From: Marine Group II euryarchaeote MED-G37
GTDB lineage: Archaea; Thermoplasmatota; Poseidoniia; Poseidoniales; Thalassarchaeaceae
Direction: 5' to 3'
Length of the DNA stretch: 60,057 nt
Assembly (NCBI GenBank): GCA_002457555.1
Contig: NTJQ01000009.1
Coordinates: 1-60,057, forward strand
Position 1 is the first letter of the stretch. Each line of letters opens with the position of its first letter. The notes beneath the pieces are model-generated. The model did not search any database and was not told the DNA's origin. It worked only from the letters and a program-made list of their open reading frames with translations. Below, piece by piece: positions 30,012-49,264 of this stretch. The position numbers and the translations under genes are program-made.

Positions 30012-33000
30012 ATGCACTTGCTGAGAATAGAAGTGGAGAACTTCAAGTCCTTTGGCGGTGAGATTACCATACCCTTCGATGAAGGGTTTACTGCGATAAC
30101 CGGCCCTAACGGGTCAGGGAAGTCAAATTCTGGCGATGCCATACAATTTGTACTCGGCACACGTTCGACAAAAGTCATGCGGGCAGACAATGTTGGTGAC
30201 TTGATATTCAACGGTGGAAAGCGGGGTAAGCCTGCCCGTCACATGTCGGTGACCCTAGTTTTTGCTAACAATCCCGAATTAGGCGGGCGACGAAGACTAC
30301 GTATTGATGAGGACGAAGCATCATTCACAAGGTCTGTCCGCCTGAGCAGAAAGAATCAACCTATTTCATCTTACAAAATAGGGGAACGTAGCGTCACTGC
30401 AACCGAGATGAGGAGAACTCTTGCAGAGGCCGGATTACACGGCGACGGATACAACATAGTTCTACAGGGCGATGTAACCAATCTTGCAACCATGACCGAT
30501 TGGAAGAGAAGAGGAGTTCTAGAAGAGGTTGCGGGAGTTACAGCTTATGATTCAGAAATTCGCTCAGCAAATAATCAACGTAAAGCGGTTGAGAATGATA
30601 TTGAGACTATCGAGTTATTCGAGTCGGACCAGAAGACTCGCCTGAAGAAGTTGGAAAAGGAGAGGGAACAGGCTCTCAAGTATCGCGACCTCAAGGAGCA
30701 GTTAGATCGAGCTAGAATCATCTTGGCCCAGGCCAAGTATCGTAACCGAGTCGACGAGATTCGTATGCTCAATGAAGACCATGAAAAGTATCAGGAAAAG
30801 AGCAACAAGGTCCGTGAAAGTGTCAGAAATAACGAATCTCGCCTTTTACAACTCGAAGAAGAATTGGTCAATGTCTCTCGTGAACTCGAGAATATGGCAA
30901 CTGGAGAATCCAAGGCAGTTATGGATGAGATTCGGGCCTTGGAAATCGAAGTCGAGACCAGCCGCGACAGAATCGGCGACCAGAACCGAGCCTCTGAAGA
31001 CGCGACCGATGAACTCGAATTTTTCCAATCCGACCTAGAATCTGCCGAGGCTGCTATTCAACAACTCGTAGACGAAATCGAGGCGGCCAAACAATCCGTC
31101 ACGGATGCCGACACCGCTCTCGATGAGGCGGAACGAAATGAGTCAGAGGCTCGCAAAGCCATCGAATCTGGAGACAAGCATTCTCGTGATTTGAATCGAG
31201 CCTTAGGATTAGCAAATGAGGAACTATCCAAGGCACATGACAAGATGGCTGAGGCCAGACTAGAATCCGATAGAGCCGAGCAAGCCTCAAGAATTGCATC
31301 GGACAATCTAGCGGATTTGGAGGAACAATACGAGGTCGTATCACTTGAGAGAGACGACCTCGAACTAACCGGCGAAGATCTACAAGAAGAAAAGCCGGTA
31401 GAGGATAGAGAATCATTGGCTGTTAAACTAACACAATTGCAGAAACAGGAGGCCGCACTTCGCGGTGATCGCGATAGTGCGGAGGAACAATTGAGAGGTG
31501 CAAATCGGTCACTTGACCGCGCTCGTGCCGCACAGGAGGCTAGAGCCTCGAAACCAGGTTCCGCTGTAACTCTGCGCGCATTATCAAAACTTAGACAGAG
31601 CGGGGAAATCAGGGGGGTACTCGGGTCTCTTGGAGAATTGACTTCACCAAAGGATGACTCACACGAGGAGGCATTAGCATTCGCACTTGGGGGCGGAATG
31701 AACTCAATCGTTGTTAGCGACGATGAAGTTGCGGCAAGTTGTATCAAGTGGCTCGGTGCAAATGGTGGTGGAAGAGCAACATTCCTACCTCTCAACAAGA
31801 TTAGTGCCTCTCGTGCTCAAGGTCGTGCGCTAATGGTTGCTAGAAACCCTGGAATTATTGGATTCGCGCATGACCTATTAGATTACGATGAAGAAATTGA
31901 AACCGCTGTACGCTTCGCCTGTAGAAACACATTGATTGTTCAGTCGATGGACGTTGCACGCCGCAATATGGGTGGAGTTAGAATGGTGACTCTTGATGGT
32001 TCGATAGTCGAAGCGACTGGCGCTATGACAGGCGGTTCATCAGCAAAGGGGGCACGTCCTTCATTCGGTGGCGCTGGAGCTGTTGGCGCCGGAATGGAGA
32101 AACTCGAGTCAGCAGTTAATAGAGCCAACTTGAGGTATTCAACGGTGGAGGCTGCACTGAAAGAAATCCGTGACAACATGAATAATCTTCGAAACCAAAT
32201 TCATGGTCTCGATGATAGCGATCACTCTGTAAAAGTCAGGAATTGGAAGGCTGATGTTAAGATTGCACAGAAGCAAGTGGATGATATCTCAAAGAAGGTT
32301 GTCGATGCTCGCAAAGAATACGAGAGATTGGAAACCGCTAGTCAAAACGCTACTGCTGCGGCTGTTGAATCGGAAAAAGAACACGAAGGCGCTGTCGATG
32401 CTCGCCGATTATCCGCGGAGGCATTACAGAATCATACACCTGATCATCTCTCACAAATTCTTCGAAGCGCTCAGGACACACGAACCGAGGCTGAGCGCAC
32501 TAAACTTAGAGCTGAATCCGACATTTTAACCGGCGGCGAGAAACTCAAGGTTCTCAAAGATAGAAAGAAAGATCTCGCTAGGTCTGTTGAGAGACAAAAT
32601 GAAATCCTTACAGAAGCCACAAAGACGATTGGGACACTTCAGACTTCAATCCAGAAGGCAGAGGAAAGCCTCAAAGAACTCAAATTACAAGCTTCACAAT
32701 TCAATGAAGAGCATCAGATTCTCAGCGGGCGTAAGGACGAGATAGTCGACGAGCGTGCAAGCCTTCGAGCTCATGTAGAACAGATGCAGACTCAGCGTGA
32801 AACAATCAAAGCAAGATTGGAAGGTCTCGTTGAGAGTATAAGGAACAAAGAAGAGACCTTGGTCGAATTACAGAGTGATTTGGCTGAGAATGAAATCGGA
32901 CTTCCTGATTTAGAAATTCAATTGCCAACAGTGGCCGAGGCGGAGAAGGGGGTGCAGGGCCTAGATCGCCGCCTCGGCCAACTCGGCGACGTCAATATGC

Positions 33001-33941
33001 TAGCTATAGAAGACTACGACATAACCGTGGAGAGAATCGCTGGTCTCGTCGCCGACGGAAAACTCTGCAAGGAGAGGCACGCAATGTTGGTTAGCCTTGC
33101 AGAACAACTCGAAGACGAGAGAAAGACAAGACTTCTCGCCGTATTTAACGAAGTCAACCAGAACTTCACTCGCGCCTACAAGTTACTACAGCCTGGTGGT
33201 GAAGGTGAATTGCAACTTGAGAATACCAAGAATCCGTTTGAGGGTGGACTAAGAATGGCTTGTATACCTCCCGGGAAGAGTAAGAGAACTCGTCGAAGTT
33301 TCCTCTCCGGCGGAGAGAAGTCGATGGCGGCTTTGGCTTTCGTTTTCGCAATCCAAGATTACGAACCTAGCCCATTCTACTACTTTGACGAGGTTGACCA
33401 GAACCTTGATCCATTCAACGCTGAGCGAATCGCTACTCTCTGTAGAATTCGTAGTACCCACGCTCAATTCATCATGGTGACTCTGAGAAAGGTCAGCCTT
33501 ACACTTGCCGACCACCACATTGGAATTACCCATGCGGGAGATGGCCGAAGTCGTCGAATTACCGACTTTGACAGAGCAGCTGCAATCGAACTAGGAGAAG
33601 AATTCGAGGCCGAGCAAGAGGCACTGAAAGAAGCACAAAGTGCCAAGGAAGGCATGGGTGACTTGCCAAGCGCTGAGACCATGCCAAAGGTGCCCGAACC
33701 AATGGATCGTCCTTTGAGTTTAGGCGGCCTTGCCGATAGGGCTGGCGTCGAAGTATCCGATGATACTGAAGAAGAGGACTTAGACCCAAGTGAATCAACA
33801 ATGTCTTCACTGAAGGAAAGAACTGACGAATGGAGTGAAGATATCGCAGAGAAGGAAGCAGCCATTCCTCAACAGGAAGACGAAGAAGAACAGGTTGCCA
33901 GCGAGGCAGCAATCGAGCAGGAATTGGAGAAAGAAGAATGA
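30012..33941 (+). CDS. smc: Chromosome segregation ATPase SMC with acidic C-terminal tail
   Basis: Core ATPase of the archaeal condensin-like complex. Walker A is GPNGSGKSNSGDA (about 33-45), followed by two long coiled-coil arms around a hinge (about 510-670, containing GVLGSLGELT and the glycine-rich RMVTLDGSIVEATGAMTGGS). The ABC signature is LSGGEKSMAALAF and Walker B is YYFDEVDQNLD. At 1309 residues it is longer than usual (about 1180): about 125 extra Asp/Glu/Pro-rich residues follow the C-terminal ATPase lobe. scpA begins within its stop (ATGA overlap). Confidence 0.96.
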   Translation: MHLLRIEVENFKSFGGEITIPFDEGFTAITGPNGSGKSNSGDAIQFVLGTRSTKVMRADNVGDLIFNGGKRGKPARHMSVTLVFANNPELGGRRRLRIDEDEASFTRSVRLSRKNQPISSYKIGERSVTATEMRRTLAEAGLHGDGYNIVLQGDVTNLATMTDWKRRGVLEEVAGVTAYDSEIRSANNQRKAVENDIETIELFESDQKTRLKKLEKEREQALKYRDLKEQLDRARIILAQAKYRNRVDEIRMLNEDHEKYQEKSNKVRESVRNNESRLLQLEEELVNVSRELENMATGESKAVMDEIRALEIEVETSRDRIGDQNRASEDATDELEFFQSDLESAEAAIQQLVDEIEAAKQSVTDADTALDEAERNESEARKAIESGDKHSRDLNRALGLANEELSKAHDKMAEARLESDRAEQASRIASDNLADLEEQYEVVSLERDDLELTGEDLQEEKPVEDRESLAVKLTQLQKQEAALRGDRDSAEEQLRGANRSLDRARAAQEARASKPGSAVTLRALSKLRQSGEIRGVLGSLGELTSPKDDSHEEALAFALGGGMNSIVVSDDEVAASCIKWLGANGGGRATFLPLNKISASRAQGRALMVARNPGIIGFAHDLLDYDEEIETAVRFACRNTLIVQSMDVARRNMGGVRMVTLDGSIVEATGAMTGGSSAKGARPSFGGAGAVGAGMEKLESAVNRANLRYSTVEAALKEIRDNMNNLRNQIHGLDDSDHSVKVRNWKADVKIAQKQVDDISKKVVDARKEYERLETASQNATAAAVESEKEHEGAVDARRLSAEALQNHTPDHLSQILRSAQDTRTEAERTKLRAESDILTGGEKLKVLKDRKKDLARSVERQNEILTEATKTIGTLQTSIQKAEESLKELKLQASQFNEEHQILSGRKDEIVDERASLRAHVEQMQTQRETIKARLEGLVESIRNKEETLVELQSDLAENEIGLPDLEIQLPTVAEAEKGVQGLDRRLGQLGDVNMLAIEDYDITVERIAGLVADGKLCKERHAMLVSLAEQLEDERKTRLLAVFNEVNQNFTRAYKLLQPGGEGELQLENTKNPFEGGLRMACIPPGKSKRTRRSFLSGGEKSMAALAFVFAIQDYEPSPFYYFDEVDQNLDPFNAERIATLCRIRSTHAQFIMVTLRKVSLTLADHHIGITHAGDGRSRRITDFDRAAAIELGEEFEAEQEALKEAQSAKEGMGDLPSAETMPKVPEPMDRPLSLGGLADRAGVEVSDDTEEEDLDPSESTMSSLKERTDEWSEDIAEKEAAIPQQEDEEEQVASEAAIEQELEKEE

Positions 33942-34945
33942 CAGTCTTCGATGCTACTGCAATGAGGGACGATATCGTCGAAAGGCTATTGCAAGGTGAG
34001 GAAGACCTTGAAACCAGCCGTTATCTAGACAGATTGGTCGAGCTAGCAAGTTTAGAGGAAGCTGAACATCAATTCCTAATCGACCCATTTGACCGTTCGG
34101 TAGCATTGGTATTCCAATTATTCAGATCAAAGGACTTAGACCCCTGGGACGTCGATCTAACTAGTTTCTTGGAGATGTTTGAGCAACGAATTAAGGCCAG
34201 CGAGGATATCGATTTACCAACTTGTGGAAGACTAATCCGAATGGCCTGGCAGATTCTTCGAGGTCAAGCATCTACTCTTATTGAGAGGCAAGATCACGCA
34301 TGGGCTGAAGTTGAGGATGATTTCCTCGACTTCGATGTCGGTGGTTGGGAATCAGAATTTACTGAAGATGATTACAACTTCTCTGTAGGAGTTATGACAG
34401 GAGCGGCAGACAACGTACTCCCCTCGATGTTTGAAGGCCGAATCCATAGAAAGGAAAGCCGCCCGGTGACTCTTGGAGAATTACTAATGGGGTTACAAAG
34501 CGCCAAACAAATCTCCGAGGATTTGAAACTTAGAGAACAAATTGCCAAGGAGAGGAGAGAGGCTCATGCAAAGGCAAGGGCTAGGTTCTCTGGCAGCCTT
34601 CACGTCGAGGATTTGGAAGCGGATCTTCGCCGAACTTGGGATGTTCTCAGAGAAAGATCCGATGAAGGTGATATGGCGGTCGACCTAAAGGAAATCGCAG
34701 GAAAACTGAGAGATAGGTCGGTGGAAGGTGGATTAGAATTCGACGAAGCTGATGCAGAAGCCCAAGTCACAGCCTTGGTATCGGCGCTATTCCTAACTCA
34801 CAGAGGTTATGCTGATTTAACCCAGAAATCAGGTAGGGATGGTTTGATTACGATCAAAGACTTACACCCAGATTACAATGACTTTGACGTACTAACAGAG
34901 AAGATTAACCCTAAGCCAGAGATGGAGGTAGAAGTCGATGTCTAA
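33938..34945 (+). CDS. scpA: Segregation and condensation protein A (kleisin)
   Basis: Kleisin that bridges the two SMC heads. The 335-residue protein has the ScpA N-terminal pattern DPFDRSVALVFQLFRSKDLDPWDVDLTSFLEMFEQRI (about 45-85), an acidic middle and a C-terminal winged-helix-like domain (about 230-320). ATG 33938 overlaps the smc stop by 4 bases. It is followed by scpB with an 8-base overlap, so the three are translationally coupled. Confidence 0.92.
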   Translation: MTVFDATAMRDDIVERLLQGEEDLETSRYLDRLVELASLEEAEHQFLIDPFDRSVALVFQLFRSKDLDPWDVDLTSFLEMFEQRIKASEDIDLPTCGRLIRMAWQILRGQASTLIERQDHAWAEVEDDFLDFDVGGWESEFTEDDYNFSVGVMTGAADNVLPSMFEGRIHRKESRPVTLGELLMGLQSAKQISEDLKLREQIAKERREAHAKARARFSGSLHVEDLEADLRRTWDVLRERSDEGDMAVDLKEIAGKLRDRSVEGGLEFDEADAEAQVTALVSALFLTHRGYADLTQKSGRDGLITIKDLHPDYNDFDVLTEKINPKPEMEVEVDV

Positions 34946-35570
34946 TTCTGTCGAGTTGTCGACCATTCTAGAAGCAATCCTGTTCAGTGTAGGTCGCTCA
35001 ATGACGGTTGAGGAATTGATGGAGCAAACCGGAAAGACCCGTTCGGAGATTTCAGGGGCGCTGGAGAATCTGCGTGCTACCATTAGACGTCGTAGAGACT
35101 CTGCTTTGCAACTAACAGAAGTTTCAGGCCGGTGGATTTTCGAAGTTAGACCTACACTTTCTTCATATTTGCCGGAATCAGTTAGGCCAGAAGTTCCTGC
35201 AAGATTGTTACCACCTGCTGCTCTAATCGCCTACCATCAACCGATGAAGCAAGCACAGTTAGTCGATATGATTGGTCCTTTAGCCTACGATCGGGTTAGA
35301 GAATTGGCCGGATTAGGATTCATCGATAGGCGTAGGGATGGATTGACCCGTAGATTGACCACAACTCGCAGATTTGCTGAATACTTCGGCTGCCCTGAAG
35401 TTGAATACCAGAAGGTAAGAGAGTGGTTTAGGGCAGAAGCCACAAAGGCTGGGCTTACCAGCGCGGAGTTAGCCGCTTCTCTCTCCGATGAACAAATGAC
35501 TATCGAAGAATTCACCGAGGTGCCATCGGAAGAGGCACTGGCGATTGAAGCCACGCAAGGTAACGAGTGA
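34938..35570 (+). CDS. scpB: Segregation and condensation protein B
   Basis: Two winged-helix domains that bind ScpA. The 210-residue protein begins ELSTILEAILFSVGRSMTVEELMEQTGKT, the hallmark ScpB N-terminus, and the second domain contains LIAYHQPMKQAQLVDMIG (about 95-112). It overlaps scpA by 8 bases and converges on the HMG-CoA reductase gene with no gap. Order smc-scpA-scpB makes the assignment firm. Confidence 0.9.
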   Translation: MSNSVELSTILEAILFSVGRSMTVEELMEQTGKTRSEISGALENLRATIRRRRDSALQLTEVSGRWIFEVRPTLSSYLPESVRPEVPARLLPPAALIAYHQPMKQAQLVDMIGPLAYDRVRELAGLGFIDRRRDGLTRRLTTTRRFAEYFGCPEVEYQKVREWFRAEATKAGLTSAELAASLSDEQMTIEEFTEVPSEEALAIEATQGNE

Positions 35571-36866
35571 TTACTCGCCGCGAACCTGTTGCAAGGCAGA
35601 TTCAACTGCTGCCATGGTGATTCTTTCGCCAGTTTCTCTAACAATCACGGCTACTGGTTCGATCTCTTCCGCAGAAGCCCCTGCGCTAGCAATCATGTTT
35701 CGTAGGTGGAGCTTCATATGTCCTGCCTGTATACCAACTGTCGCAAGGGCTCGAAGGGCACCAAGGTTCTGTGCAAGGCCTGCAGCGGCCATTACTTTCG
35801 CAAGGTCATCAGCCGAGTTAATTCCTAGAAGTGCTACATTTGCTTGGGCACCAGGGTGTATTGTAATCGCCCCACCGACCAATCCAACCGCCATTGGAAT
35901 CTCAATCGAACCGACTAGGTTCCCCTCTGCATCCTTTTCCCAATGGGTCATCGAACCATACCGGCGTTCGTGTGCAGCGTATGAGTGAGCACCGGATTCG
36001 ACAGCTCTCCAATCCTGTCCACAGGCAATTGCAATAGGAGATATTGCATTCATTATTCCTTTGTTATGTGTAGTTGCTCGGAACGGATCTGCCGCCGCAA
36101 AATGGTAGGCTTGTAATACGCCATCGATAACTTCTGCCCCTCTTGCTGCATCCTTACCAGCATCTGACATCTCTTCTGCAGTGAAAGTTGCGCTGACTCT
36201 AGCCAGTCTATGTACTGCTAAGTTACTGATAATTCGTAGAATCACAGTCCCTCCTGAGATACTTTCTATTCTAGGAGCAATGGTTTCTGCCATTGTATTA
36301 ACCGCATTTGCCCCCATTGCATCACGACAATCAACTAGGATGTGCACGATTATCATAGGGCCCGAATCAGTTTCAATAATTCTCGCCTCAACATCTCTAC
36401 ATCCTCCGCCGAATTTCACTAAAATCGGATCTACATCATTGCAGGATTCTATCAATTCCTCTTTAGCGGCAAGAATTGCATCTCGAGATACCTCCGGGTC
36501 TTCACAACCGACCACCTGAATTTGCCCAATCATTACTGGGTCTGTATTGTTTGAGACAAAGCCACCGTTCATCTGACACCTCTTGGCCATGTTGGATGCG
36601 GCTGCAACTACACTTGCTTCCTCAACTACGAATGGGATAACATAGTGTTCTCCATCGATGATGAAGTTAGTTGCAACGCCAATAGGTAGTGAATACCTAC
36701 CGATTACATTCTCGATCATTCTGTCTGCGGTGCCTTCGTCAAGTTCAGCATCCGCCCATGCTTGGACTTGTTCTTCACTGAGGCCAGCAAGTTCTGCAAG
36801 CATGGCTCTTCGCTCTGGGACGGATAGTTTGTAGAATCCACTCAATCGGCTATTATCTATGGGCAT
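35571..36866 (-). CDS. mvaA: HMG-CoA reductase, class II
   Basis: Makes mevalonate from HMG-CoA, the committed step to archaeal isoprenoid lipids. It is class II (bacterial-type), not the class I usual in archaea: ENVIGRYSLPIGVA (52-65), DAMGANAVNTMAE, HNKGIMNAI (catalytic Lys) and HMKLHLRN (catalytic His near the end) all follow class II wording. Length 431 is standard. ATG 36866 gives the family's opening SRLSGFYKLSVPERR. Upstream lies the long gene-free CGTTAA-repeat region. Products feed the prenyl genes at 12.5-14.6 kb. Confidence 0.95.
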   Translation of the reverse strand: MPIDNSRLSGFYKLSVPERRAMLAELAGLSEEQVQAWADAELDEGTADRMIENVIGRYSLPIGVATNFIIDGEHYVIPFVVEEASVVAAASNMAKRCQMNGGFVSNNTDPVMIGQIQVVGCEDPEVSRDAILAAKEELIESCNDVDPILVKFGGGCRDVEARIIETDSGPMIIVHILVDCRDAMGANAVNTMAETIAPRIESISGGTVILRIISNLAVHRLARVSATFTAEEMSDAGKDAARGAEVIDGVLQAYHFAAADPFRATTHNKGIMNAISPIAIACGQDWRAVESGAHSYAAHERRYGSMTHWEKDAEGNLVGSIEIPMAVGLVGGAITIHPGAQANVALLGINSADDLAKVMAAAGLAQNLGALRALATVGIQAGHMKLHLRNMIASAGASAEEIEPVAVIVRETGERITMAAVESALQQVRGE

Positions 36867-37230
36867 AGTTTCACCGAACCTTGCGACAACCTTCTGGTTC
36901 TAAGCACTTCGCGGTGATTATGCCAGAAACACTCTATTGAGAGCCAGGTAGGCACTCGGCCAAGATTGCCGATAATCTATCTTGAATGGGAGTTAAGTAG
37001 CCTCGATTAGAAGATATTTCCAGTTTAAAAAGCGTTAATTCCCTCGTTAACGCATCGTTAACGCATTAAGTAAGCGTTAATAAAGCGTTAATATGTATTT
37101 AAAAAAACGTAGTACTGTGAACTTATGTCTGTTTAAAACATCTGTGTTTATCAAAATATACGTTAATTATGTACTAATGATGCGTGAGGATGCGTGAATA
37201 TTATGTACTCATACTCGAGCGTGGACGATA
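36867..37230. other. 364-bp gene-free AT-rich region (possible origin or operator)
   Basis: The only long intergenic stretch in the window. The middle (37020-37200) is strongly AT-rich against a near-50% GC background. It holds the CGTTAA array (listed separately), A/T runs (TTTAAAAAAAC at 37098-37108) and two GATGCGTGA copies (37179-37187 and 37189-37197, 10-bp period). It separates the divergent HMG-CoA reductase and ATPase/winged-helix genes. A 34-codon reading frame at 37093 lacks a ribosome-binding site and is not called. Confidence 0.6.
37032..37091. repeat. Helically phased CGTTAA repeat array
   Basis: CGTTAA starts at 37033, 37045, 37056, 37075 and 37086, with a near-copy CATTAA at 37064; spacings are 12, 11, 8, 11 and 11 bp, close to one DNA helical turn. 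The 37045 and 37056 copies are the palindrome CGTTAACG followed by C. A further isolated copy is at 37161. The pattern resembles iterons bound by an initiator or repressor. Confidence 0.7.
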
Positions 37231-39234
37231 ATGACTGAGGAGCCCACGACGATACTCGATTTACCTCCATTACGAGGTAACCCCTTCGACCTGCGTCCTA
37301 TCGAACCAAATCGCGCAGAATATCTAGTCGGGCGAGATCGACTACTAGCGGAATGGCGTGAACACCTAATTTCCCAAACTCCACGGTTGTTACTATTGGT
37401 TGGTGATAGCGGCTCTGGGAGAACCTCTTTCCTCAACGCTCTAGCTTCAACTACATCCCGCCGTCCGTACATTGCACAATTCTGGCCAGAAGCCGATGAT
37501 TCTGTTCAGGGAATAATCCATGAGTTGTCGGTACATTTCGGCGGCTTTGAAATCCCACCGTCAATACAACAGGTTTCTGATAAGATGGTGGAAGTCCTCG
37601 ACAAAGAGACAGGAACACTGCCATTAATCGCCTTTGATTATCCCGCTAATGTCGATTTGAACTCCGTATTATTTCGATTAGCACCTTTACTTCAGAGACT
37701 TCGAGCACTTGTTGTGGTCGTACTTACTCCCTCACAACTGGCCGGGTTAGATGAGGGCGTGTTGGATATTTTCGACAAACCTCATTATTTACAGAATTTA
37801 GACGAAAAACAAATCCAGATGCTTAGTAATCGTAGAATTTCTCGCTCGGCCAATCAAAAGTGGAATATCAGGCCCAGCCTACTAACTGCAATTCACCAAC
37901 ATACAGATGGAAACTCACGTAGGGTAATCCGCCTATTGCGCGACTTAATCGATGAGAGGCATAATCCGGCCGAAGGAGGTGTTCTAGATCGACTAACTAC
38001 TTGGAGAGCCCCACCAGTAAAATCAGAACCCAGAGTATTCGAAGAAGCCGATATAGCACCAGATATAGAAGAAATCGCCGAAGAACCAGAGGTCGTAGAA
38101 ATAGAGCCTGAAGAAGAAATTTCCCAAATAGACGAATTTCAACTAGAGGAGGAAGATGAACCAGACGACCTTTGGGATGAAGACGAGGATGAGGAAGATA
38201 ACGAGACTTCATGGAATGATGAATTCGAGGCACCCGACGAAATTTGGAACCCTCCAGGAGAGCCGGCAGAACTAGAGGTTGAGGAGGAAAGATTCCATCA
38301 AGCCGAACAAACTCCTGAATCCGAACCTAGTGAATTGTACCAAAGAGCTGGAGACGAATCTGGGTTTTATTATGTTGAAGAGGGGACTGAACCTCCTGAA
38401 TTACCCGAATCTAGGAAATCAAAAGGGAATTTTGGGCGTTTATTAGGCCGTACCATGCAAGTCAATGATAGGATGCCGACAACAGGCGATGATACACCGA
38501 TTCAGGTCGCTGAGCCTCACAAGAGTTTGGTGCCAAGGGCTCCGGTAAAGGAACTGCCTCCCGAAAGCGTAGAGGATGAACAATCAACTGCAAGAATCGA
38601 CATATCGGTGCAGTCTGGTATAGAAGAGTCCGTTTTCCACGACGATCAGTCAGTTTGGATGGTTGATTCAGGTTCCAAATCTACCTTACCCGACAATCCT
38701 AGAGTATTCGAACCAATTACACCAGAGCCAGAGCCTGTTGTCGAGGAAATTGATACTGAATGGTTCGTCGATGACGGGCGTGCTGGAGAAGAGCTCGAAT
38801 CAATTCCTGAGCCTGTTTTTGAGCTGGAACCTCCCCTGGTTAGTATCCCATTAATTCCAACCACACCACCACCAACTCCGGTTACAACTCCGCCACCAGA
38901 TCCATCACCAACTCCTGTACAAGTCCCCGTGCAAGTTCCGGTTTCATTAGGTCCGACATGGGAACCAGATCAACCATTCAATCCAATCGTTTTGCAAACA
39001 CTAACCGAGGCCGAGAGAATGATTGTCGAGGCCTCGTCAATGCGCGAAGTCTCTCCATCTGATAACGAATTACAAGCTCGCTTAGAGGTCGGTCGTTCCC
39101 GTCTCTCGCAGATATACAATGGAATGCGACGCAAGGGTCTTCTGTCGGTAAGAAAGCAAGGTAGAACTCGATACTTCAAACTCAGCGAGGCCGCAAATCA
39201 ACACTTGCGTGGAGCGCCACAGGAGGCTGCATAA
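37231..39234 (+). CDS. AAA-type ATPase with acidic/proline linker and C-terminal winged helix
   Basis: 667 residues in three parts. The N-terminal ATPase (about 15-255) has RGNPFDLRPIEPNRAEYLVGR, then Walker A GDSGSGRTS (58-66) and a Walker-B-like LPLIAFDYP with Asp but no following Glu, an arrangement reminiscent of Orc1/Cdc6-type proteins. A long Glu/Pro-rich, probably disordered linker covers about 265-585. The C-terminal domain (about 590-660) is a winged helix (LEVGRSRLSQIYNGMRRKGLLSVRKQGRTRYFKL). It could act as a DNA-binding regulator or initiator at the adjacent repeat array; this is inferred from position. It overlaps the DUF357 gene by one base. Confidence 0.65.
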   Translation: MTEEPTTILDLPPLRGNPFDLRPIEPNRAEYLVGRDRLLAEWREHLISQTPRLLLLVGDSGSGRTSFLNALASTTSRRPYIAQFWPEADDSVQGIIHELSVHFGGFEIPPSIQQVSDKMVEVLDKETGTLPLIAFDYPANVDLNSVLFRLAPLLQRLRALVVVVLTPSQLAGLDEGVLDIFDKPHYLQNLDEKQIQMLSNRRISRSANQKWNIRPSLLTAIHQHTDGNSRRVIRLLRDLIDERHNPAEGGVLDRLTTWRAPPVKSEPRVFEEADIAPDIEEIAEEPEVVEIEPEEEISQIDEFQLEEEDEPDDLWDEDEDEEDNETSWNDEFEAPDEIWNPPGEPAELEVEEERFHQAEQTPESEPSELYQRAGDESGFYYVEEGTEPPELPESRKSKGNFGRLLGRTMQVNDRMPTTGDDTPIQVAEPHKSLVPRAPVKELPPESVEDEQSTARIDISVQSGIEESVFHDDQSVWMVDSGSKSTLPDNPRVFEPITPEPEPVVEEIDTEWFVDDGRAGEELESIPEPVFELEPPLVSIPLIPTTPPPTPVTTPPPDPSPTPVQVPVQVPVSLGPTWEPDQPFNPIVLQTLTEAERMIVEASSMREVSPSDNELQARLEVGRSRLSQIYNGMRRKGLLSVRKQGRTRYFKLSEAANQHLRGAPQEAA

Positions 39235-42668: not shown

Positions 42669-43844
42669 TTAGCCCCTCAAAAATTCACTCTCAATTCTGC
42701 TTTCGATAGTTGCTGGTGCAGTATTGTTCATTGTGATGTGTTGAGTTCTACCTCTTCCAACGTTGGTATTGGCAGTCCTAGTTTCGATTAGTCCTTCGGT
42801 TTCCAACGTCTTCAGATGCTTCCAGAAAGTGGTGTAACTTCGCGGTTTCACCTCATATTCTTCACAGACTAGTAAGTAGAGCTTGTGAGCATCTCCGCTC
42901 GAGACGTATTCTGCCTTCTTCAAACGTCTACAAATACCTAGCAAAGACAATTTTTGGTGTTGCGATAAATTGTCAACCGAACTCGGCTCCAGTGATGCCT
43001 TTCTCAAGGTACTAGGTCTCACATCATCAGGTAAAACTTCACCACGTCCCTCTTTTTCCGTTCGGCGGATGGCCGCTTCCAGTAGTTCAATCGCCATTCG
43101 CGCATCTCCGGATTCTGCAGCGAATTGACCGATTTTAGTCAGAGTTTCATCAGCTACCGAACCAGTTCGACAGGAAACTTCTACCCTTTGGCTAGCGATA
43201 CCTGTCAGAGTCTCTGCATTGTAGGGTTGCATCTCAACGATATTCGATTGCCCTAAGCGTGAGATAATCGCCGGCTCAAAGAGCTTCATCAAAGACAAAT
43301 TCTGACTAACAAGAATCATCGAAATCGTACCTTGGTTTTCTTTTCCTTCATCTATTCTCAATAATTTGTAGATTAGATCTGAATGATCGCGATTTACCAA
43401 AACATCAGCCTCATCCAAAATTAACAGAAGATGACTATCGTGTGTAATCAGATTTCTTCGAATAGATTGGATGATTTCACCCGGACTAAATCCTCTCTCT
43501 GGATGCCGTTCGTCGAGGCTGAGTGCAATCTGTTGCAAGACCTGTGGTCCGGTTGGGTGATTACGACAGTTTACGTGTGTAATGACGGTTTTTCTTCTTC
43601 CTTCGAGATGGCGTTGAATATCTTCTGTAAAGCGACGTGTCAGAACCGTCTTTCCCGAGCCAACCGGCCCCATGACGACCGCTTGGCAACTGGTTTCATG
43701 GTTCTCAATTTGCGAGAAGATGGCCGCCATCTCACCCAATTCTTCGCCTCGACCTATCAGAGATGGCGGAACCCAGTCGTACGACAGGGGGGCCTTATCC
43801 AGCAGGACTTTGCCTGCTCCGATGCGGTCGAGGTATCCTGCCAT
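42669..43844 (-). CDS. cdc6: Orc1/Cdc6 replication initiator
   Basis: Origin-binding AAA+ ATPase that recruits the MCM helicase. Walker A is GPVGSGKT (59-66), Walker B is LLLILDEADVL (about 143-153), and ISMILVSQNL and ISRLGQ are sensor-region motifs. A C-terminal winged helix occupies about 300-380. At 391 residues it is full length. The start is ATG 43844 with GGAG upstream on the minus strand. Replication origins in archaea are often near cdc6; the 99-bp upstream gap has no repeat array, whereas one occurs 6 kb away at 37.0 kb. Confidence 0.94.
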   Translation of the reverse strand: MAGYLDRIGAGKVLLDKAPLSYDWVPPSLIGRGEELGEMAAIFSQIENHETSCQAVVMGPVGSGKTVLTRRFTEDIQRHLEGRRKTVITHVNCRNHPTGPQVLQQIALSLDERHPERGFSPGEIIQSIRRNLITHDSHLLLILDEADVLVNRDHSDLIYKLLRIDEGKENQGTISMILVSQNLSLMKLFEPAIISRLGQSNIVEMQPYNAETLTGIASQRVEVSCRTGSVADETLTKIGQFAAESGDARMAIELLEAAIRRTEKEGRGEVLPDDVRPSTLRKASLEPSSVDNLSQHQKLSLLGICRRLKKAEYVSSGDAHKLYLLVCEEYEVKPRSYTTFWKHLKTLETEGLIETRTANTNVGRGRTQHITMNNTAPATIESRIESEFLRG

Positions 43845-48834: not shown

Positions 48835-48893
48835 ATTTTCAACACCTTGTAAATAATGCCTCATGGCTTACGATAAGGCGATGCTGGAGATTG

Positions 48894-48899
48894 ATTTAA
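48894..48899 (+). promoter_or_regulatory. TATA box of the TM2-domain gene
   Basis: TTTAAA is centred about 27 bp before ATG 48924, which fits a leaderless archaeal transcript. No Shine-Dalgarno sequence precedes this ATG. Confidence 0.5.
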
Positions 48900-48923
48900 A
48901 CCTAAGACGGAAGACGATGTGAT

Positions 48924-49145
48924 ATGGATGAACAAACCTCAGACAAAGACTGGACCACGCTATTGATTCTATCTGTCCTATTGGGTGGATTGGGAGTTGA
49001 CCGATTTTATGCAGGGCACATCGGCCTCGGTGTACTGAAGCTACTTACTATAGGCGGCTGCGGAATTTGGGCGCTTATCGACATCATCATGGTTGCAACT
49101 GGAAAGTTCACAGACGCTGATGGTCTACCGATTGTCAACCAGTGA
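48924..49145 (+). CDS. TM2-domain membrane protein
   Basis: A 73-residue protein with two membrane helices joined by a short turn, matching the TM2 family: LLGGLGVDRFYAGHIGLGVLKLLTIGGCGIWALIDI is its signature (about 19-56). The role is unknown; such proteins occur in all domains. A hairpin lies 28 bp after its stop. Confidence 0.9.
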   Translation: MDEQTSDKDWTTLLILSVLLGGLGVDRFYAGHIGLGVLKLLTIGGCGIWALIDIIMVATGKFTDADGLPIVNQ

Positions 49146-49172
49146 AAGCTGCTTACTCAGAATAACCAAGTC

Positions 49173-49187
49173 CTTCCCGAAGGGAAG
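49173..49187 (+). terminator. Hairpin after the TM2 gene
   Basis: CTTCCC-GAA-GGGAAG is a perfect 6-bp stem with a 3-base loop, followed by TTT. It lies 28 bp after the TM2 stop codon and about 78 bp before mutS. Confidence 0.45.
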
Positions 49188-49264
49188 TTTAGCACAGGAT
49201 TGCTTATGCACCCTAGGCTCACAGACACCGCCCACGCGCAGCGTAAGCAATGGAGGAGTCTGAT

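Follow-up and report, generated by a model that had tools for sequence, protein, structure and literature searches.

Does a cluster of short, regularly spaced repeats beside the gene for an initiator-like ATPase mark a replication origin, or does it control the gene next to it? The question is raised by an intergenic region in the order Poseidoniales, whose members are among the most abundant archaea of the surface ocean; we know of no cultured representatives, and to our knowledge little has been established about how their genes are controlled. The window analyzed here, a 60,057-bp contig of a 1.28-Mb genome (79% complete) from an MGIIb archaeon of the Thalassarchaeaceae type, carries the repeats between the divergent genes for HMG-CoA reductase (HMGR; 35571..36866, reverse strand) and for a 667-aa AAA+/winged-helix protein (37231..39234, forward strand). 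The gene order is SMC, likely ScpA, ScpB, HMGR, the array, the AAA gene, DUF357 and an MscS-type channel, beyond which eIF2-gamma, S6e and Orc1/Cdc6 genes lie on the reverse strand. The SMC/ScpA/ScpB cluster (30012-35570) adjoins HMGR and is close to the AAA/winged-helix gene; the gene between SMC and ScpB, which has no Pfam match, is likely ScpA by its position.

The preliminary description of this region reported five exact CGTTAA copies within 60 bp, mostly 11–12 bp apart, and this was borne out (forward-strand positions 37033, 37045, 37056, 37075 and 37086, spaced by 12, 11, 19 and 11 bp), as were the two palindromic copies, CGTTAACG at 37045-37052 and 37056-37063, and the direct repeat with a 10-bp period, GATGCGTGA at 37179-37197. 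An additional forward CGTTAA copy is found at 37161, downstream of the upstream cluster. Counted on both strands, seven CGTTAA hexamers are packed into 60 bp, whereas 200 dinucleotide-preserving shuffles of the window gave a maximum of three per 60-bp stretch; across the 60-kb window as a whole, the hexamer is rarer than expected (13 versus 17.9). With their flanking bases the sites read AAWGCGTTAAT, in both orientations. The region had also been called the only long gene-free stretch of the window, which is not the case, as the gaps at 317-630 and 48868-49249 are comparable under a simple ORF criterion.

While the repeats stand as described, the unit that they form is larger and differently built, consisting of eight sites between 37032 and 37197: an upstream group of five, a single intermediate site and a pair of GCGTGA variants that touch a TATA-like box. 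The upstream group comprises S1 (GCGTTAA, 37032..37038, forward strand), which in f1 relatives lies some 200 bp before the AAA start; S2 and S3 (both TTAACGC, 37047..37053 and 37058..37064, reverse strand), 11 bp apart; and S4 (GCGTTAA, 37074..37080) and S5 (GCGTTAA, 37085..37091), both forward and again 11 bp apart, with S4 reading GCGTTAG in most relatives. An AT-rich spacer (37092..37160; 24% GC in the window) sits between this group and S6-S8. Of the latter, all on the forward strand, S6 is a CGTTAA in the context ACGTTAAT (37161..37166), S7 is a GCGTGA variant (37182..37187) that reads CGTTAA in some genera, and S8, a second GCGTGA variant (37192..37197), abuts the AAA gene's TATA-like box (AATATTATGTAC, 37197..37208, forward strand), which is located 23 to 34 bp upstream of the start codon and by this position suggests a promoter of the leaderless type. 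On the HMGR side, a conserved GCTTAGAACC element (the reverse complement of GGTTCTAAGC; 36896..36905, reverse strand) about -30 from the HMGR start is the probable core promoter of that gene, and it carries no array sites. A scan for bacterial-type promoters and terminators was uninformative for archaea, its minus-strand terminator-like match being S1/S2 themselves.

Repeat conservation in relatives, proposed earlier as a check, proved striking, with the array present at 75 of 75 named loci that have a complete HMGR-AAA region and seen in both families. At least four sites within 70 bp were found at 73 of 75 loci with a complete intergenic region, and among 22 relatives from the window's family, most of the invariant intergenic columns fall in array sites. 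The divergent HMGR-AAA pair is kept in both families of the order, HMGR being conserved across it, and in the sister family the array is present too, in rearranged form. Relative to the AAA start, the common layout has a forward site at -200, reverse sites at -186 and -175, forward sites at -158, -147 and -70, with two GCGTGA variants following at -48 and -38. In other genera all sites point forward (at -182, -162, -151, -140, -129, -64 and -34, for instance). The sister family combines reverse sites at approximately -158, -149 and -137 with forward sites at approximately -131, -120 and -109 and a further reverse pair at approximately -73 and -62. The consensus AAWGCGTTAAT was built from 511 such sites. 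For same-direction sites the best period was approximately 10.75 bp (45 distinct layouts), placing them on one helical face. Rather than a single DNA sequence, what relatives preserve is the site sequence, the 10–11 bp phase and the spacing from the AAA gene. Measured from site to site, the S5-S6 spacer is 77 bp long in 38 of 58 relatives and 75 bp in the window; its length is conserved, and its sequence much less (43% identity, versus 79% in the array).

The promoter to which the array is tied is that of the AAA gene, not that of HMGR. Across the related, and hence not independent, sequences compared, the position of S5 relative to the AAA start has a standard deviation of 2.6 bp, versus 41.2 bp relative to the HMGR start, and where the HMGR side is expanded, in genome G033, the array remains with the AAA gene. 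The stretch between HMGR and the array of that genome (L054, G033:C79) holds a possible ORF of 39 aa that starts acidic and includes a hydrophobic segment. There is also just one such locus per genome. A profile built from S1-S5 and run against the genomes of 59 relatives matched in 56, with the HMGR-AAA locus as the best match in nearly all of these, and gave no match elsewhere in the 59 genomes below E = 0.03; tandem GCGTTA pairs outside the array were about as frequent as a reversed control pattern and close to chance level. One conserved GCGTTA pair in the window's genome, considered as a second array (G000:C12:59474), was found upon inspection to lie within an agmatinase-like ORF.

The neighboring protein is predicted to have an AAA+ domain at its N terminus (residues 1-250; AlphaFold2 pLDDT 90, pTM 0.87) and an ArsR-like winged helix at its C terminus (residues 580-660; pLDDT 91), joined by an acidic linker of low complexity. 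The combination of an Orc-like ATPase fold with a winged helix had been noted before and is retained; the winged helix is not of the Cdc6 C-terminal type, however, and is ArsR/SmtB-like by structure comparison. The nearest solved structures to the AAA+ domain are Orc/Cdc6, clamp-loader, TnsC and MuB ATPases (for TnsC, MuB and Orc/Cdc6, TM-score to the query of about 0.55-0.63 at about 10-19% identity), and those nearest to the winged helix are ArsR/SmtB-type repressors such as HlyU and SqrR. A sequence search of solved structures returned weak, chance-like matches (E of 0.003 or worse). The Cdc6_C and Cdc6_lid domains match the gene at 42669-43844 and not the AAA/winged-helix gene, and in place of any Lrp match the protein has an AAA_16/nSTAND N-terminus and the ArsR-like wHTH. 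Its Walker A motif is GxxGSGR[TS], with arginine replacing lysine in most members (lysine is found in L013), and the typical Walker B acidic pair is absent; to judge from the motif, such an ATPase may bind ATP but hydrolyze it poorly.

Within the protein, conservation is highest in the winged helix, whose recognition region (SPSD...VGRxRLSQ..N) is near-invariant, as is the CGTTA core of the sites. In a lineage with changed wing residues, A replaces G before CGTTAA in 28 of 38 sites, versus 54 of 473 others; as a single evolutionary event, this covariation between wing and flanking base is only suggestive. A profile of the protein matches 254 of 293 genomes sampled from the class, and among the matches listed all belong to the two families of the order, the named relatives that carry it being MGIIb/Thalassarchaeaceae and other Poseidoniales MAGs. 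Some of the absences are contig breaks, as in G003 and G010, where the array is found at a contig end. As far as searched, the protein and the array share one taxonomic range, the order Poseidoniales.

We therefore consider it probable that the array serves the AAA+/winged-helix gene as its operator, with that gene's own product as its most likely ligand, and that this operator is conserved throughout the order, with HMGR possibly under the control of the same array. In the mechanism we infer, the winged-helix tail of each subunit would read one GCGTTAA-type site, all on one face of the helix, and the AAA+ domains would hold the subunits together, giving cooperative binding over S1-S5 and the promoter-proximal S6-S8, with the fixed-length AT-rich spacer between them looped or wrapped. 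Occupancy of S7/S8 at the TATA-like box would then block TBP/TFB and limit the protein's own synthesis, and the same protein-array complex may tune the divergent HMGR promoter, a joint control made plausible by the parallel with BarR. Repression by occlusion would not be the same everywhere, since the proximal sites of the sister family lie at about -62 and -73 and not against the TATA box. Two features sit less easily with an operator: conservation of eight sites through a whole order exceeds that of most simple autoregulatory operators, and sites up to 200 bp upstream are unusually far. Given the conserved pairing, HMGR could also be the real target.

This last thought leads to the alternative that the array is an operator for a different transcription factor, encoded elsewhere and controlling the AAA gene, HMGR or both. 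The retention of the divergent gene pair throughout the order would fit such a factor, and the link between the winged helix and the sites is itself an inferred one. Such a regulator should have further targets, yet the array is unique in each genome; moreover, the sites are tied to the AAA promoter and not to that of HMGR, and the range of the array coincides, as far as searched, with that of the AAA protein. We regard a separate factor as rather unlikely.

Of the two roles put forward in the preliminary description, origin or autoregulated operator, the operator is supported by an array locked to the AAA promoter, and the origin is the one that fared poorly. In a chromosomal replication origin, the repeats would serve as origin boxes or iterons for the AAA protein or a nearby Cdc6 to bind, and the AT-rich spacer would unwind. 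Compatible with this are the occurrence of the locus once per genome and the placement of the repeats next to both an AT-rich stretch and the gene of an initiator-like AAA+/winged-helix protein of Orc fold, with cdc6 itself about 5 kb away. The earlier report of a nearby Orc1/Cdc6 gene was correct both here (42669-43844, approximately 5 kb downstream of the array) and in many other genomes, at a similar distance. The repeats are, we assume, unlike ORBs. Nearly every genome encodes two Orc1/Cdc6 paralogues, about 27% identical (for example, window 42669-43844 and G000:C12:91486-92619); in most genomes with visible linkage one is in the AAA neighborhood and the second elsewhere. There is also the precedent of Sulfolobus oriC3, which adjoins the winged-helix initiator gene whiP (PMC4010727).

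Strand asymmetry was measured as skew at fourfold-degenerate sites, corrected for gene strand, over 53 stretches of the closed genome G036 (about half the chromosome) and over whole contigs G027:C8, G016:C8 and G024:C11; within the 60-kb window alone, skew is too noisy. A skew inflection at the array had been suggested as a check, and none was seen in any of the four. In G036 (2.06 Mb), where the array lies at 695 kb, AT skew is negative to either side of it; the sign changes at approximately 1.22-1.24 Mb (L134, L135 and L100) and the skew fades near 0.6 and 1.85 Mb. Skew is positive across all 354 kb of G027:C8 (L140-L157), uniformly at about +0.13, a span that includes the array (146 kb) and a second Cdc6 gene (234 kb); it is positive throughout the 276 kb of G024:C11 and flat in G016:C8, which is from the window's genus. 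Because a steady bidirectional origin should reverse the sign of the skew and no reversal was seen, a main origin at the array is unsupported; the test is indirect and bears on a steady bidirectional origin, not on a weak or conditional one. An array geometry locked to a gene's start codon and TATA-like box also argues against an origin, as does a winged helix that is ArsR-like and not Cdc6-like, and we judge this role distinctly unlikely, which removes an attractive but unsupported origin candidate. Separately, the true origin or terminus of a Poseidoniales chromosome may lie in the candidate G036:C1 region at approximately 1.22-1.24 Mb, neither of the G036 Cdc6 genes (0.70 and 1.83 Mb) lies at that skew switch, and the strong replication-strand asymmetry of the G027:C8 genome could be used to locate its origin.

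A third role would be structural. Plasmid partition systems exist in which the centromere lies inside the system's own promoter, and the AAA/winged-helix protein might likewise assemble on its single array and thereby position the chromosome or segregate it, autoregulation then being a side effect. One array per genome, phased fixed repeats, nearby SMC and ScpB genes in the window, an AAA+ fold close to the DNA-coating TnsC and MuB, and the strong conservation of array and winged helix above all else would suit such a site. The neighboring genes searched include no ParA, ParM or TubZ-like motor, however, and a Walker A arginine without the typical Walker B acidic pair makes ATP-driven movement uncertain, so that we hold a partition site to be very improbable. 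The broader idea that the array is a centromere- or licensing-like single assembly site, on which a phased AAA+ nucleoprotein filament would organize or segregate the Poseidoniales chromosome with gene control secondary, we view as highly doubtful. Finally, a structured RNA or DNA cruciform formed by pairing of S2/S3 with the complementary S4/S5, for which RNAalifold gives a 15-pair hairpin through S2-S5, has next to no chance of being the explanation, given that no pair is changed on both sides, no Rfam match comes near threshold, and the all-forward lineages (L209, L210, L216 and L231), which largely refute it, cannot form the hairpin yet retain phased sites.

If the array is an operator read by its neighboring gene's product, nearly every Poseidoniales genome holds a well-defined cis-element together with a candidate regulator, an archaeal one in which an Orc/TnsC-fold ATPase, and not an Lrp or TrmB scaffold, would organize phased sites. 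Its N-terminal domain shares a predicted fold with the TnsC, MuB and Orc/Cdc6 ATPases, from which the protein differs by its Walker A arginine in most members, its ArsR-like winged helix and the absence of a visible adjacent transposase partner. In the TubR/tubC type III partition system, an ArsR-like winged helix binds direct repeats located in its own operon's promoter; unlike that system, the array system is chromosomal, has no TubZ and fuses an AAA+ domain to the winged helix. The Sulfolobus oriC3/WhiP and Orc1/Cdc6 origins resemble it in having repeats beside an initiator-type gene, an AT-rich stretch and a single site per chromosome (PMC4010727), whereas the array differs in its lack of a skew switch, its promoter-tied layout and the ArsR-like winged helix.

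Two archaeal regulators come closer. Ss-LrpB of Sulfolobus is likewise an HTH regulator whose own control region offers it several conserved, helically aligned sites to bind, and the cooperative binding, DNA wrapping and concentration-dependent autoregulation demonstrated for it are only proposed for the array (PMC2995911). Ss-LrpB belongs to the Lrp family: it has a RAM domain, and its dimer sites are separated by two to three turns. The array, by contrast, is built of non-palindromic 11-bp sites at one-turn spacing, its conserved layout is far longer, and an AAA+ domain takes the place of RAM. The BarR/aminotransferase pair of the Sulfolobales is alike in that a regulator divergent from a metabolic gene binds four to five phased sites between the two, one oligomer controlling both promoters (PMC10201364), as is only proposed for the array and HMGR. 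BarR is an Lrp-type octamer responding to beta-alanine, while the metabolic partner of the array is HMGR, with no known effector. The architecture is that of known multi-site archaeal autoregulation; what is new is an order-specific candidate regulator with an Orc/TnsC-fold AAA+ domain.
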